From a virus: DNA of 25,481 nucleotides. The notes below the pieces were generated by a model, which ran no database searches, was not told the origin of the DNA, and was given only the letters and a program-made list of their open reading frames with translations. The stretch lies in the IMG/VR virus record IMGVR_UViG_3300006921_000133, positions 1 through 25,481 of that record; one strand, given 5' to 3'. Below are positions 2,992 through 24,778 of the stretch, one piece after another. How positions within the stretch are numbered: the stretch's first letter is position 1; each line of letters begins with the position of its first letter. Both the position numbers and the translations under genes were made by a program.

Positions 2992-3025
2992 AAAAAAAAA
3001 TGCCCTCACTATTTAAAGTAAGGGC
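2992..3025 (-). terminator. Rho-independent terminator after the SSB gene
   Basis: On the minus strand an eight-pair stem (GCCCTTAC with GTGAGGGC, one G-U pair) is followed by nine T residues. It starts seven bases after the stop of the gene at 3032-3364. The T-run ends five bases before the next start codon at 2986, so it can also be read as a leader attenuator for the following operon. Confidence 0.88.
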
Positions 3026-3031
3026 GTATTA

Positions 3032-3364
3032 TTAAAATGGTAATCCTGAGCCATCATCTACAATAGGTGTAGATTGTTCTACCTTGTCACATCTCCAATG
3101 ACTTAAATTATTATAGATTTTTCCGTTGTACTCTTTGCCTCGTATTGAAAACTCTACTTCTACATTATCCCCTACTTTATTATACGAAATAAAATTGTCA
3201 ACGTGTTCTGCATACTCTGCTTTGTTGTACATATTAAAGCTATACGGTGTAGTATATCCGTTGTCACTTGTTTCAGTTACTGTGTAGTCTAAAACAACTG
3301 CTCCGTTATCTAATGTTTTCTTCTCTCCTATCTTCGTGATAGTTCCTTTCATTTTGTAATTCAT
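3032..3364 (-). CDS. ssb: Single-stranded DNA-binding protein, DUF3127-like
   Basis: Likely binds and protects single-stranded DNA during replication and recombination. The 110 residues form a beta-rich body of OB-fold size (GTITKIGEKKTLDNGAVVLDY, VEVEFSIRGKEY, NLSHWRCDKVE) and end in an acidic tail DDGSGLPF. That tail resembles the DDDLPF-type tip of bacterial SSB, which recruits partner enzymes. From memory, DUF3127 proteins of Bacteroidetes have this layout. It is followed by a strong terminator and lies in the recombination region downstream of the exonuclease and ERF genes. The assignment rests on the tail, size and context. Confidence 0.75.
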   Translation of the reverse strand: MNYKMKGTITKIGEKKTLDNGAVVLDYTVTETSDNGYTTPYSFNMYNKAEYAEHVDNFISYNKVGDNVEVEFSIRGKEYNGKIYNNLSHWRCDKVEQSTPIVDDGSGLPF

Positions 3365-3452: not shown

Positions 3453-4631
3453 TTAAAACATACTGATTTGATTTTGAGCAACTTCTTTATAGGCATTCGC
3501 ATTAAAAGTTAATATATTTATGTTCTTTTTGTGTTCTTGTCCAATATACTTGTAACTTTTAGTTACGCTTTCCTTTCTTAATTTTAAACCATTATCTTTT
3601 CCTTCTTCTAATAGTTTTTTGTTTGTTTTTTTTATTTGATTAATATTATTATTTTGATTTGTTAAAAGCCAATTATTATCATTTCTAACCATACCTTTAA
3701 ATAAAGAAGGATTTGAAGTTTTTATATATAGTGTTTTATTATCTTTTTTATACATAGAGCCAAAAATATTAAGTATTTTAATACCTATACCTAAACCTTG
3801 AAAGTCAGGTAAAACTACTAATCTGCTAACTCTAAAAGCGTTTTGTATTGTTCCACTTGGCATTGGTAATATAGCAATAAAAGCAGCTGGTTTATCATTA
3901 AACAACATTAAAAAACATTTAGCCGCTTTATTTAAATCTTGACTTAAATAATGATGTTGCTTGAATATATCCCAAGTTTCATATCTACATCGAAATACCT
4001 GTAATTCAATTTTTGGTCTTTGCCTTCGACAAGACGCTTTCTCAAGACGCCCTTTTAATGGTGAATAAGTCCAATCTGGTAACAACCATTCCATAATATC
4101 AAAATGACACGATGCAAGTATTATTTTTTTATTGTATTTTCTAATATACTTTTGTAAAGCGTTACTCATTGCTTTTGCTACATCTCTATCAACCACACTT
4201 GTAAATTCATCAATTAAAATAACTTCGTTTTCAGAGGCTTTCCCAACTTTATAAGCCAAAGAGGCTCTATATTGTTCGCCATTACTTAATAAACTAAATG
4301 GTCTTAACCAAGTTGGTACAGAAGCCAAACCCATTGCAGATAATAAAAATGTAGCTTCTTTAGGTTCTAACCAATCAAAATTACTAATTAAAGGCTTATT
4401 TTCATCAAATTTATCAATAGTTAAACTACCAAATTCTTTTAATAAAGTAGTTTTACCAGTTCCAGAACCGCCATAAATAACACCTATATTCCAATCAAAT
4501 GTTTTACATTCACTAAAGTTAATAGGTATTTTTACACTTGTCTCTTCTTTGTTTTGTATATCAAATGCTTCGTAAACATATTCAGTATATTTGTCATTTA
4601 TTATCTTATTTTTTCTTTCAATATATTTCAT
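3453..4631 (-). CDS. ABC-type ATPase fused to a GNAT acetyltransferase-like domain
   Basis: A two-domain protein of 392 residues. Residues about 1-195 form an ABC-type ATPase: Walker A GGSGTGKT at 54-61, signature-like LLSNGEQYR at 114-122, Walker B VILIDE at 137-142, D-loop-like SVVDRD, and a switch His in SCHFD at 174-178. Residues about 206-320 look like a GNAT acyltransferase, with the acyl-CoA-binding motif LVVLPDFQGLGIG at 271-283. The last 70 residues are Lys and Asn rich. No membrane segments or transporter partner are present, so this is not a transport ATPase. It resembles the soluble class described as ABC-type ATPase fused to an acetyltransferase (COG2401 type), whose substrate I do not know. 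It sits between the exonuclease and SSB genes, which hints at a nucleic-acid task such as modification or recombination. The substrate is open. Confidence 0.85.
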   Translation of the reverse strand: MKYIERKNKIINDKYTEYVYEAFDIQNKEETSVKIPINFSECKTFDWNIGVIYGGSGTGKTTLLKEFGSLTIDKFDENKPLISNFDWLEPKEATFLLSAMGLASVPTWLRPFSLLSNGEQYRASLAYKVGKASENEVILIDEFTSVVDRDVAKAMSNALQKYIRKYNKKIILASCHFDIMEWLLPDWTYSPLKGRLEKASCRRQRPKIELQVFRCRYETWDIFKQHHYLSQDLNKAAKCFLMLFNDKPAAFIAILPMPSGTIQNAFRVSRLVVLPDFQGLGIGIKILNIFGSMYKKDNKTLYIKTSNPSLFKGMVRNDNNWLLTNQNNNINQIKKTNKKLLEEGKDNGLKLRKESVTKSYKYIGQEHKKNINILTFNANAYKEVAQNQISMF

Positions 4632-4635
4632 CGTT

Positions 4636-5418
4636 TTATTTTAAAGTATTATAGTACACTCTTGCTAACTCAACTTTCTCTTTAATACGTTTTATGTCTT
4701 CACCACATAATGTTACATCAAATGATTTTACACGCTCCCAAATTGGGATAGCTGATAAATCAAAATAGGCTCTAACCTCATCTTCAACCTCTTGGCTTAC
4801 CTCTCCAGCTTCGCCACGTTTCCAGCTTACTCTTCTCATTTCATCTAATATAATCATCTCAGGAGTAGGTACAAGACAATAGCTTAAATAGGCTTGATGT
4901 ATGTTTGTGAGCCAACAGTATGCTTTTAGTTGCCATTTGTAATTAGTGTTCTTTAATTCATTATCAAAGAATGGGAATGTTGATGCACTCCAGCTTGTTT
5001 TAACATCAATAATAAATTCATCGGTTATTACATCGGGAGTACCTTTTACATAATCGTTTTCAAAGTGTTCATTGTTCTTGTAAAGACATTCTTTATCCAT
5101 CATAGTCTCAACCAACTCAATACTCAAATGTTCTACTTCATTTCCCTTATCAAAGTATTTTGAATTAATCTCTTTTTTGACACCATAATTATTTTCTAAC
5201 CATAACTCTTTAATGTAAGTCTTAGCACCAATAGATAGTTCAGGCTTTGCATCTCTTTTTTCAATTAACGAATCTCTTAACTCTGCTTGTTTGTCAGTCA
5301 ACTTAATTTTAGATAGCAACCCCTCTAACGTGAGAAGTTGCTTATCTGTAATTTTATTCTTTGCATCATCTGACATTATTTTACCTAACTGCGATGCTCT
5401 TATTTTTAGTTCTGCCAT
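4636..5418 (-). CDS. YqaJ/lambda-type recombination exonuclease
   Basis: Likely a 5'-3' double-strand exonuclease of the PD-(D/E)XK superfamily that makes single strands for the annealing protein. The core is visible: an acidic helix KGNEVEHLSIE at about 91-101, GTPD at 126-129, the active-site IIDVKT at 136-141, and the following helix with Gln (WQLKAY at 162-167) typical of YqaJ-type nucleases. The N-terminal 60 residues are a helical extension. At 260 residues it is close to the family's usual size. It lies in a tight operon: ERF at 5613, a 63-residue gene, this nuclease and then the ABC-GNAT gene, with gaps of 1-4 bases. Pairing with ERF gives a two-component recombinase like lambda Red. 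Confidence 0.88.
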   Translation of the reverse strand: MAELKIRASQLGKIMSDDAKNKITDKQLLTLEGLLSKIKLTDKQAELRDSLIEKRDAKPELSIGAKTYIKELWLENNYGVKKEINSKYFDKGNEVEHLSIELVETMMDKECLYKNNEHFENDYVKGTPDVITDEFIIDVKTSWSASTFPFFDNELKNTNYKWQLKAYCWLTNIHQAYLSYCLVPTPEMIILDEMRRVSWKRGEAGEVSQEVEDEVRAYFDLSAIPIWERVKSFDVTLCGEDIKRIKEKVELARVYYNTLK

Positions 5419-5612: not shown

Positions 5613-6206
5613 TTATAATAGTTTTAATGATGCTTTTTGTACATCACCTAATTCAAAGCCTTCTAACATCTTTAAAAATGCCTCTTTAGTTATGTCTCCG
5701 TCTTGCACCTTATCAATACCTTTCTGAAATCTACCTTTTGAAATAGCTGGTTTATCTTTGCCATAGTTATTTAAACCAACGCTCACTTTGTTTGGTATTT
5801 GTTCGCCACTTGCATCGTTATCTAAGTCTGTCACTATACCCAAAATCGAACTCAATGAGTACCTTTTTAAATAAGTCACGGCACTACCCAAAACTTGAAA
5901 ATCATTCATTTTAGCTAACTTAACGTCTTGTGGTATATCTGTAATACTTTTAATTGTTTCACCAGTTTCAACGTGGAATAAAATAGTTTCTATTGTCTTA
6001 CCATTTAGAAGTTGCGTAAAGCCTAAACCATTCTTTTTAAGTAGTGGATTAATTACCTTAAAAATAGTCGGTAAGTCGCTGTAAGTATATCCGTAACCTT
6101 TAGTTGCTTTGTGGATAGTTGGACACTCTTGTTGAAAGTTAGCAAGGCTTTTATAGATGCTTTGTTTTCTGTCCTCTAAAATTGATTCAAATGTTTCTTT
6201 ACTCAT
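5613..6206 (-). CDS. erf: ERF-family single-strand annealing protein
   Basis: Likely anneals complementary single strands in phage recombination. The N-terminal part matches the ERF superfamily: a helix with LANFQQECPTIHKA, GYGYTYSDLPTIFKVINPLL, then the diagnostic GSAVTYLKRYSLSSILGI followed by an acidic DLDNDA. The C-terminal tail of about 60 residues is variable, as in the family. Length 197 residues is normal. The gene opens the run of recombination genes and starts five bases after the small ribbon-helix-helix-like gene at 6212. Confident call. Confidence 0.92.
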   Translation of the reverse strand: MSKETFESILEDRKQSIYKSLANFQQECPTIHKATKGYGYTYSDLPTIFKVINPLLKKNGLGFTQLLNGKTIETILFHVETGETIKSITDIPQDVKLAKMNDFQVLGSAVTYLKRYSLSSILGIVTDLDNDASGEQIPNKVSVGLNNYGKDKPAISKGRFQKGIDKVQDGDITKEAFLKMLEGFELGDVQKASLKLL

Positions 6207-6524: not shown

Positions 6525-6538
6525 AGTTTTAAAATTAT

Positions 6539-6557
6539 GGGAGGAATTTCACCTCCC
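6539..6557 (-). terminator. GGGAGG/CCTCCC hairpin after the 61-residue gene
   Basis: A perfect six-pair stem GGGAGG with CCTCCC around a TGAAATT loop, nine bases after the stop at 6567. On the minus strand it is followed by ATAATTTTAAAAC; on the plus strand by TTTGTTTT. It is nearly identical to the hairpin at 10425-10442. It probably works as a terminator, perhaps in both directions. Confidence 0.6.
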
Positions 6558-6566
6558 TTTGTTTTG

Positions 6567-6752
6567 TTACTTAAATAGATGTTTGTTTTCCTCCCACCAC
6601 TTTTTAGCTTCAGATTCTGATTCAAACTTTTTGTAAGGCTTTCCACTTCCTGTTACTACATTTGGAGCTTTTCCTAAAGAGCCTAAATCAAGAATTCCAA
6701 CTAACAGCTCGTAATCTCCGTTTTTTCTTTTTGTTACTGTTCCTGTATTCAT
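6567..6752 (-). CDS. Small protein with own promoter (61 aa), moron-like
   Basis: I do not recognise this protein. It starts MNTGTVTKRKNGDYELLVG, looks beta-rich at first, and ends in a tryptophan-containing helix (SEAKKWWEENKHLF). It has a private strong promoter at 6798-6829 and a hairpin behind it, between the NinG gene and the recombination operon. This is the second copy of the promoter, small gene, hairpin unit seen at 850-1183 and 10425-10880. The C-terminal helix loosely resembles the ends of the other two cassette proteins. Function unknown. Confidence 0.75.
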   Translation of the reverse strand: MNTGTVTKRKNGDYELLVGILDLGSLGKAPNVVTGSGKPYKKFESESEAKKWWEENKHLFK

Positions 6753-6850: not shown

Positions 6851-7369
6851 TTATTTTAAAAGTTTTTTGTACTTCTCAATAATAGCAAGTAGTTCAGAGC
6901 GTAAATATTTTTTAGTAATATGCCGATTTTCTTCTAAATACTCTACTTTTTCTATTCCTATCTTTTCGATTAAGTTAATCCGATACTCTAATAAATTACC
7001 ACTAAGAAAGGTATTACAGTATTCACATTGCAAGTGAACGTTATGCTCGTTAAAAGTTAGAAATTTACTTTTCCCTGATGCTATATAGTGACCAGCGTTA
7101 ACTTTTTTAGGTGTAGGATTCTTGCAAGAGATACAAGGTTGTCCAGCATCACGCTTTCTTATCCAAGAATTAAACACTATTTGGGTAGACTTCATTAAAG
7201 ATTGTAAAGTTTCAGCTTTCTTTTTTTTTGATTTAGTTTCTTTTTTAACTCTCTTAAACATCTGAGCCTTTAAAAACTCAAAGTATAAATCATTACACTC
7301 ATCTTTGGTGCAGTATTTTCTATTGAATTGTCTTGGCTCAAAAACTACTTTACAATTCTTACACTTCAT
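6851..7369 (-). CDS. ninG: NinG/Rap-type recombination protein
   Basis: Similar to lambda NinG (Rap), a structure-specific nuclease that resolves branched recombination intermediates. The N-terminus has a zinc-finger pattern (CKNC at 3-6, then YC and C at about 19-25). The C-terminal half has the NinG core: CISCKNPTPKKVNAGHY, SKFLTFNEHNVHLQCEYCN and LSGNLLEYRINLIEKIG, with the Cys and His residues of an HNH-like zinc fold. Length 172 residues is near the usual 160-200. The gene starts with a one-base overlap with the 89-residue gene upstream and lies just behind the helicase, as in many phages. Confidence 0.88.
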   Translation of the reverse strand: MKCKNCKVVFEPRQFNRKYCTKDECNDLYFEFLKAQMFKRVKKETKSKKKKAETLQSLMKSTQIVFNSWIRKRDAGQPCISCKNPTPKKVNAGHYIASGKSKFLTFNEHNVHLQCEYCNTFLSGNLLEYRINLIEKIGIEKVEYLEENRHITKKYLRSELLAIIEKYKKLLK

Positions 7370-10397: not shown

Positions 10398-10424
10398 AAT
10401 AGTTTTTTTAAGTTTAAAAATTAT

Positions 10425-10442
10425 GGGAGGCTTTCACCTCCC
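10425..10442 (-). terminator. GGGAGG/CCTCCC hairpin after the 121-residue gene
   Basis: A perfect six-pair stem GGGAGG with CCTCCC around a TGAAAG loop. It is followed on the minus strand by ATAATTTTTAAAC and then, about 25 bases on, by the start of the next gene. It is almost identical to 6539-6557 and 24740-24760. It is probably a terminator; read-through would feed the replication operon. Confidence 0.6.
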
Positions 10443-10449
10443 TTTGTTT

Positions 10450-10815
10450 TTATATTAATTTTAAGTATTTATTAAATAAATTCTTTGCGTGATTTTCGTC
10501 TTTACACGACAATTTCATAACCCATTGTGGCACTATTAATCTAACGGTATCTTTACCAATGTTTTCTAAAAGCCAATCAGTTTTTTCATTGTCTAATATT
10601 AATTCATAACCAACCCATTTGTCGTTTTCGGAAATTGTCATAGACATTACGTTATGTTCCCAATAAGTATAAACTGCCATATATAAACCCTCAATATCAG
10701 CATAAGATTGATAGCTACCTATAAGATTAGAAGCAGTATTTAAAATTGTTTTCTTTGTGATATGACCAGAGTTTTCTTCCCATTCCTCATTTAAAAATTC
10801 TCTAACGTTTTTCAT
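10450..10815 (-). CDS. Protein of unknown function with own promoter (121 aa), moron-like
   Basis: I do not recognise this protein. It starts MKNVREFLNEEWEENSGHIT, has aromatic-rich strands in the middle (LYMAVYTYWEHNVMSMTI, DKWVGYELILDNE) and ends in a helix DENHAKNLFNKYLKLI. ATG at 10815 is chosen over a GTG at 10848, because the latter would lie in the leader shared with the 74-residue gene at 892-1116. The gene carries the same promoter and leader as that gene and the same trailing hairpin as 6539-6557. It stands between the metallophosphoesterase and the replication operon. Confidence 0.76.
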   Translation of the reverse strand: MKNVREFLNEEWEENSGHITKKTILNTASNLIGSYQSYADIEGLYMAVYTYWEHNVMSMTISENDKWVGYELILDNEKTDWLLENIGKDTVRLIVPQWVMKLSCKDENHAKNLFNKYLKLI

Positions 10816-10850
10816 AATAATTAATTTAGTTTTTGTCGTTATTGACACTT

Positions 10851-10880
10851 CAAATATATATATACTTTTTCAATAAACAA
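10851..10880 (-). promoter_or_regulatory. Bacteroidetes-type promoter for the 121-residue gene
   Basis: On the minus strand TTG (10878-10880), 19 bases, TATATTTG (10851-10858). From the -7 box to the ATG it is the same as the leader at 1116-1159 except for one base. Two inverted repeats lie just upstream at 10909-10942. Confidence 0.8.
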
Positions 10881-24727: not shown

Positions 24728-24739
24728 TATTTAAAATTA

Positions 24740-24760
24740 TAGGAGGCTTTCACCTCCCAT
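24740..24760 (-). terminator. GGAGG/CCTCC hairpin, fourth copy
   Basis: A GGGAGG-TGAAAG-CCTCC hairpin with the same loop and flanks (TGGGAGG before, TATAATTTT after) as that at 10425-10442. It lies 19 bases after the stop of the gene at 24779. A classical terminator follows it. Confidence 0.55.
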
Positions 24761-24778
24761 TTTTGTTAGTTAGTTTTT

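Follow-up and report, generated by a model that had tools for sequence, protein, structure and literature searches.

An ABC ATPase-GNAT fusion gene in a phage recombination gene cluster: a candidate DNA-modification enzyme that trades places with Mom in other phages

The stretch of DNA analysed here (the window) is a virus record of 25,481 bases. Its minus strand carries, at positions 3453-4631, an open reading frame of 392 amino acids plus stop that encodes an ABC ATPase fused to a GNAT domain; the plus strand over the same positions is rich in stops. A preliminary description of this DNA had given these coordinates exactly, and the strand can now be added as minus. Directly upstream, only 4 bases apart, lies the gene of a YqaJ/RecE-like exonuclease (4636..5418, minus strand; phrog_5715, E 7.8e-48). 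The gene of an ERF single-strand annealing protein (5613..6206, minus strand; PF04404, E 1.6e-22) and that of NinG (6851-7369) are found further upstream. Directly downstream is the gene of an SSB-like DUF3127 protein (3032..3364, minus strand; phrog_4932, E 3.9e-12; PF11325). The matches to phrog_5715 and phrog_4932 bear out the earlier placement of the gene between an exonuclease and an SSB gene. The ABC-GNAT gene is co-directional with the ERF, exonuclease and SSB genes.

Two hairpins suggest the borders of a single transcription unit around these genes, although both are consensus matches only. A terminator-like hairpin 3' of the SSB gene (3002..3025, minus strand) could mark the end of the unit, and a bidirectional terminator-like hairpin (6539..6557, without assigned strand) its upstream border. 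The latter belongs to a 39-base repeat that contains a hairpin (GGGAGG..CCTCCC) and occurs three times in the window (6529-6567, 10414-10452 and 24730-24768); the copies are likely bidirectional terminators. A different repeat of 56 bases (1112-1167 and 10811-10866, 93% identity) covers the starts of two otherwise different minus-strand genes and is probably a shared promoter and leader.

The ABC ATPase half of the product (residues 1-200; 4032..4631, minus strand) carries the complete set of motifs. On the minus strand these are Walker A (GGSGTGKT, residues 54-61; 4449..4472), the ABC signature (LSNGEQ, 115-120; 4272..4289), Walker B (VILIDE, 137-142; 4206..4223) and the switch histidine H176 (4104..4106). 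Among 59 diverged sequences, residues G54, S56, G57, G59 and K60 of Walker A, L115, S116 and G118 of the signature, D141 and E142 of Walker B, and C175, H176 and D178 around the switch are invariant. The earlier positions of Walker A, Walker B and the switch histidine were correct; the signature starts at residue 115 rather than at 114.

The GNAT half (residues 201-392 plus stop; 3453..4031, minus strand) gave a canonical GNAT fold in its own AlphaFold2 model. It contains an HHYL motif (226-229; 3945..3956, minus strand) and the stretch R270-G283, RLVVLPDFQGLGIG (3783..3824, minus strand), which ends in GNAT motif A, the CoA pyrophosphate loop, here QGLGIG (278-283). H227, Y228, R270, P275, D276 and G279 are invariant in the 59 diverged sequences, and conservation is 90% or higher at W220, F223, L229, V272, G281, G283 and W321. 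The Pfam model Acetyltransf_1 matches this half with 22.0 bits, above its cut-off of 20.7. Together with the complete ABC motifs, this match upholds the description of the protein as a fusion of a GNAT-like domain with a soluble ABC ATPase.

The reading frame is confirmed as a real gene rather than a chance one by three results. The profile of phrog_11143 (annotated as 'unknown function') covers residues 3-368 (E 4.6e-143), the homologue in Nonlabens phage P12024S, the closest cultured relative, is ~71-74% identical along its entire length, and the AlphaFold2 model of the full-length protein has a mean pLDDT of 89.5 (pTM 0.83). PADLOC returned only weak, generic ATPase matches for the protein.

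Relatives are widespread. A tblastn search matched the window protein in 68 phage records, with hosts among Bacteroidota, Proteobacteria, Firmicutes, Actinobacteria and Leptospira. A scan of viral contigs gave at least 593 confirmed relatives, and 372 stretches of a prokaryote genome set encode relatives, many of them from Planctomycetota and Bacteroidales. Terminase genes near many of the relatives in the prokaryote set indicate that many are prophages. Throughout the family (phrog_11143; COG2401-type according to the preliminary description), the domains and their order agree with the window protein over the full length, and the window protein shows the family traits: a soluble ABC cassette with all motifs is followed, in the same chain, by a C-terminal GNAT domain that carries motif A. 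The member in Tenacibaculum phage pT24 is 59.5% identical to the window protein over residues 1-317. In a phylogenetic tree, the window protein falls within a clade of 23 rows (SH-aLRT 99), in none of which a ParB gene lies directly upstream. The window gene thus differs from the family at large in belonging to a ParB-less clade and in lying within a recombination gene cluster.

Some members depart from the single-chain arrangement. An in-frame stop interrupts the GNAT part in pT24 (L005, 5001-6173; after ...WNGVPV) and in two further loci (L042, 1934-2785; L057, 1823-2698; TAG), which could reflect decay, error or recoding. In Firmicutes phages, ABC and GNAT are separate reading frames in -1 phase (L008, 4600-4663; L004, 6420-6546; L146, L147, L148 and L317). 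In Streptococcus homologues, no start codon lies near the GNAT frame; the ABC/GNAT junction holds a slippery heptamer, which reads A AAT TTA, with T TTA AAC likewise found in P335. This suggests that a programmed -1 frameshift may yield the fusion in these phages. It does not serve as a general rule for Firmicutes phages, because the -1 arrangement is constant but the classic heptamer occurs in some only; it is absent from L150, L318, L319, L320 and L321.

Outside the window's clade, the most common companion of the family is a ParB-like gene directly upstream. It was found in 51 of 69 cellular, 45 of 45 Pmp13-like and 6 of 6 Firmicutes loci, compared to 1 of 136 window-like loci; these sets were picked by similarity and include near relatives, so the counts do not represent independent events. 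In the window, the upstream neighbour is the YqaJ gene and not a ParB-like gene. Likewise, ParB_N was not found in the complete genomes of P12024S, pT24 and Porphyromonas gingivalis phage 011a. At one locus (L212), ParB, ABC and GNAT form a single reading frame.

The same type of partner accompanies Mom, the DNA modification enzyme of phage Mu. In the Antuna-like Mom subfamily, ParB lies upstream in 65 of 78 loci and one gene further in 4 more, and the ParB proteins of ABC-GNAT and Mom systems are up to 69% identical. The ParB neighbours match the N-terminal part of the phrog_498 DNA methyltransferase. ParB-like proteins are known from other modification systems: ParB-like DpdB accompanies established DNA-modification enzymes (PMC12839542), and ParB-like proteins occur at CmoX loci and in methyltransferase fusions (PMC12783734). 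DpdA/DpdB and CmoA/CmoX/CmoY resemble the ABC-GNAT systems in combining a DNA base modification with a nearby ParB-like protein (PMC12839542, PMC12783734), but their catalytic folds, i.e., transglycosylase, methyltransferase-like and amide ligase, differ from ABC-GNAT.

In two phage groups that are unrelated to each other, the same locus is occupied by ABC-GNAT in some members and by Mom in others. Ten Mu-like phages of P. gingivalis share the same tail locus. At their right end, four carry mom (012a-015a), five carry ABC-GNAT (006a-009a and 011a) and none carries both; the sequence of the tenth, 010a, stops before the right-end cassette could be scored. The DNA of phages 011a and 015a is 92% identical as far as the tail genes extend, and the final 91 bases are 83% identical. 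Between these flanks, 011a has ABC-GNAT plus a formyltransferase gene, and 015a has mom. In Arthrobacter phages, EastWest is collinear with L432, L435 and L438, with 71-83% DNA identity on both sides. The flanks consist of an upstream gene and a ParB gene on one side, and of DNA-binding and sliding-clamp genes on the other. Between them lies ABC-GNAT in EastWest and Mom in L432, L435 and L438. Both of these clean cases lie outside the window's clade, so that occupancy of the mom locus is a property of relatives and not of the window phage itself.

Other phages qualify this pattern. Enterococcus phage Q69 has Mom directly after the DNA polymerase gene, and phage 9184 has no Mom and carries ABC-GNAT near the 3' end of its polymerase gene; this pair is suggestive of an exchange, although the two sites are not the same. 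The ABC-GNAT module of 9184 splits the polymerase gene, with the last part of the polymerase following the GNAT domain in the same reading frame (L320, 2205-3762). The two systems are not strict alternatives, since the Aeromonas phages AsFcp_1 and PX29 carry ABC-GNAT and Mom genes together. Moreover, the right end of Mu-like phages may hold varied cargo, so that two genes swapped there need not share their chemistry.

In contrast to the shared position, the sequences show no significant relation to Mom. The search against PHROG profiles gave no match between the window protein and phrog_1384 (Mom), BLASTP against Mom gave nothing meaningful, and hhalign of the GNAT half against Mom was not significant (E 0.047, probability 1%). 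The GNAT half as a Mom homologue was therefore ruled out at the sequence level. The weak hhalign alignment pairs HHYL with HYS of Mom. This is the sole motif in common: when the Mom motifs HYS, ELxR, SFAD, YxAxN and the C-terminal RY were sought in the window protein, HY alone was clearly shared, and SFAD and YxAxN were not seen. Mom (PDB 8bv8, phrog_1384) belongs to the GNAT fold family and has its HY motif near the domain start, as in ABC-GNAT. It is exchanged with ABC-GNAT relatives at the same genome position, and one Mom subfamily has the ParB-like partner. However, Mom has no ABC domain, and the QxxGxG that is kept by the GNAT half is absent from the Mom alignment; the donor is probably another one than that of ABC-GNAT.

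The modification of adenine in DNA by Mom involves a glycyl group that requires tRNA-Gly (PMC12908700). Because of this use of tRNA-Gly, tRNA genes linked to ABC-GNAT were sought; scattered tRNAs were found near relatives only and none in the window. In Microbacterium phage Antuna (L310, 3469-4728), the ParB, Mom and tRNA-Gly genes adjoin, which fits the reported tRNA-Gly dependence of the Mu modification.

How might the window enzyme work? We think it probable, judging from sequence comparisons, that it is a soluble acyltransferase gated by ATP, and that it modifies a base in the DNA of the phage itself, which would thereby be protected from host restriction nucleases. The grounds for reading it as a DNA modifier come from relatives: the replacement of Mom at the same locus, the ParB-like partner common to both systems outside the window's clade and, in addition, the ASCH/DUF3850 and formyltransferase genes that recur directly downstream. 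Upon ATP binding, two ABC halves would close into a clamp on DNA. The clamp would bring a base to the active site of the GNAT domain (H227-Y228, R270), where acyl-CoA bound by QGLGIG would donate its acyl group to an exocyclic amine, and ATP hydrolysis would then free the DNA. DNA as the substrate, the clamp action, acyl-CoA as the donor and protection as the purpose are what we infer. In the window's lineage, the enzyme would work without a ParB partner. The position of the gene, close to and co-directional with recombination genes, suggests that it may act while the DNA replicates. ABC-GNAT would thus be Mom-like in place and probably in purpose, while not being a member of the Mom family.

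An alternative explanation might be that the enzyme acetylates a protein, such as RNA polymerase or a replication protein, and redirects the host like the phage GNATs of the Rac type, with the ABC half providing ATP-dependent targeting. Such GNATs have been described (PMC7824862), and the GNAT half has the CoA loop. The predicted structure of the GNAT half can also be cited for it. In the full-length model, the ABC half (residues 1-202) is similar to common ABC cassettes, for instance that of MJ0796 (Z 14.4, 175 residues, 3.3 Å). The model of the GNAT half alone (pLDDT 87.0, pTM 0.83) has as its best match among those listed 1y9k (Z 12.3, 132 residues, 2.7 Å), followed by 6ao7 (Z 11.7), 1yvk (Z 11.6) and the peptide acetyltransferases Naa50 and RimI (both Z 11.6). 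The GNAT half is thus predicted, by this comparison and by a Foldseek search, to have a canonical GNAT fold resembling ordinary acetyl-CoA GNATs, and Mom structure 8bv8 was absent among the matches listed for either model, full-length or GNAT-only.

These matches name no substrate, however, as the listed Z-scores of the predicted GNAT fold (12.3-10.6) are mostly tied across many GNATs. RimI and Naa50 are among the nearest solved folds on this footing, and they lack an ABC domain, act on peptides and have a genomic context unlike that of ABC-GNAT. Protein acetylation also leaves the Mom exchange and the shared ParB partner unexplained. Hence, nucleic-acid modification appears better supported, and we regard protein acetylation as unlikely. 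The earlier suggestion of an ATP-driven nucleic-acid modifier gains from the swaps and the common partner, and loses from a predicted GNAT fold whose nearest listed matches are common acetyl-CoA GNATs, RimI and Naa50 among them; a fold closest to peptide or ribosomal-protein acetyltransferases was one half of the refuting condition named in the preliminary description. Its comparison with Mom holds as an analogy of role and fails as kinship, since the sequences are not significantly related and the CoA-binding loop of the GNAT half is absent from the Mom alignment.

A second alternative is that the enzyme acylates RNA. TmcA, which combines an ATPase and a GNAT domain, produces N4-acetylcytidine in tRNA, and TmcA/NAT10 thereby resemble our proposal in coupling an ATPase to a CoA-type GNAT domain that acts on nucleic acid. 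In this case, the ASCH proteins encoded next to ABC-GNAT would act as erasers or readers of the modification. A DUF3850/ASCH reading frame lies directly downstream of ABC-GNAT in 13 of 250 loci, compared to 2 ASCH frames among 3491 other reading frames, both located two genes downstream. The p-value of this enrichment (4e-14) overstates independence, because the loci are related, although several distinct lineages are involved. For instance, the Streptococcus phages Javan141 and MismyG have an ASCH gene 3' of the GNAT reading frame. The ASCH protein YqfB hydrolyses N4-acylcytosines (PMC6972931). Yet, the ATPase of ABC-GNAT is of the ABC type and not a helicase as in TmcA/NAT10, whose substrate is RNA. 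Furthermore, no link to tRNA genes was found, and the Mom exchange and ParB linkage point toward DNA. RNA acylation therefore seems improbable, somewhat more so than protein acetylation.

The surroundings of the window gene, between exonuclease and SSB genes, might also indicate a recombination factor, i.e., a small ABC protein of the Rad50 kind that would process DNA ends together with the exonuclease and SSB and whose GNAT half would be regulatory. This idea agrees with phmmer matches to Rad50, which are weak (E 0.07). In contrast, most relatives outside the window's clade adjoin ParB and terminase genes instead of recombination genes, and even the close homologue of P12024S follows a primase gene and is separated from ERF and YqaJ. 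The GNAT residues are, moreover, conserved as strongly as the ABC residues, which makes a recombination factor very improbable. Finally, a component of an ABC transporter, as annotated in several records, including those of Streptococcus and Oenococcus phages, is suggested by the ABC motifs but is almost certainly wrong, given that the NCBIfam transporter models shown all scored far below cut-off (at best 27.8 against 254.85 bits) and that no permease gene was identified beside ABC-GNAT at the loci surveyed.

Returning to DNA-base acylation, a further neighbour gives a hint about the chemistry of the mark. Of the 69 cellular loci, 12 have a formyltransferase gene (Formyl_trans_N) after ABC-GNAT, as does P. 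gingivalis phage 011a. The proteins are PurN/Fmt-like with the catalytic motifs HPSPLPYGRG and DxGD, and are encoded beside ABC-GNAT (L006, 6032-6505) or fused to it (L271, 1245-2849). PurN/Fmt-like formyltransferases act on primary amines. Speculatively, and with low odds of being right, the GNAT step might put an amine-bearing, aminoacyl-like acyl group on the base, which the adjacent or fused formyltransferase of Bacteroidales phages would then N-formylate. Readers or erasers of the product would be the ASCH proteins encoded beside ABC-GNAT in other lineages. This would amount to a layered acyl-amide DNA mark that no known enzyme makes.

The idea of DNA-base acylation is not new. It has already been predicted from sequence for the ABC-GNAT family, with the pT24 relative named (PMC7824862), where Iyer et al. 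2013 is cited as the original prediction. The earlier statement that the function of COG2401-type fusions is not known thus has to yield to a prediction in print, and stands insofar as the literature searched contained no measured function for the family. The window gene adds a member to a known family. What appears to be new, compared with the literature searched, are the same-locus swaps, the formyltransferase fusion, the clade without ParB and the sharing of a ParB partner between Mom and ABC-GNAT, although some of these may stand in the 2013 paper.

The family is carried by many phages and prophages. Its natural exchange with Mom provides matched phage pairs, such as P. gingivalis 011a and 015a, or Arthrobacter EastWest and its Mom-bearing relatives. 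If our interpretation is true, these phages would have an acyl-type modification of their DNA that is powered by an ABC ATPase, which would offer a route of restriction evasion and possibly a sequencing tool.
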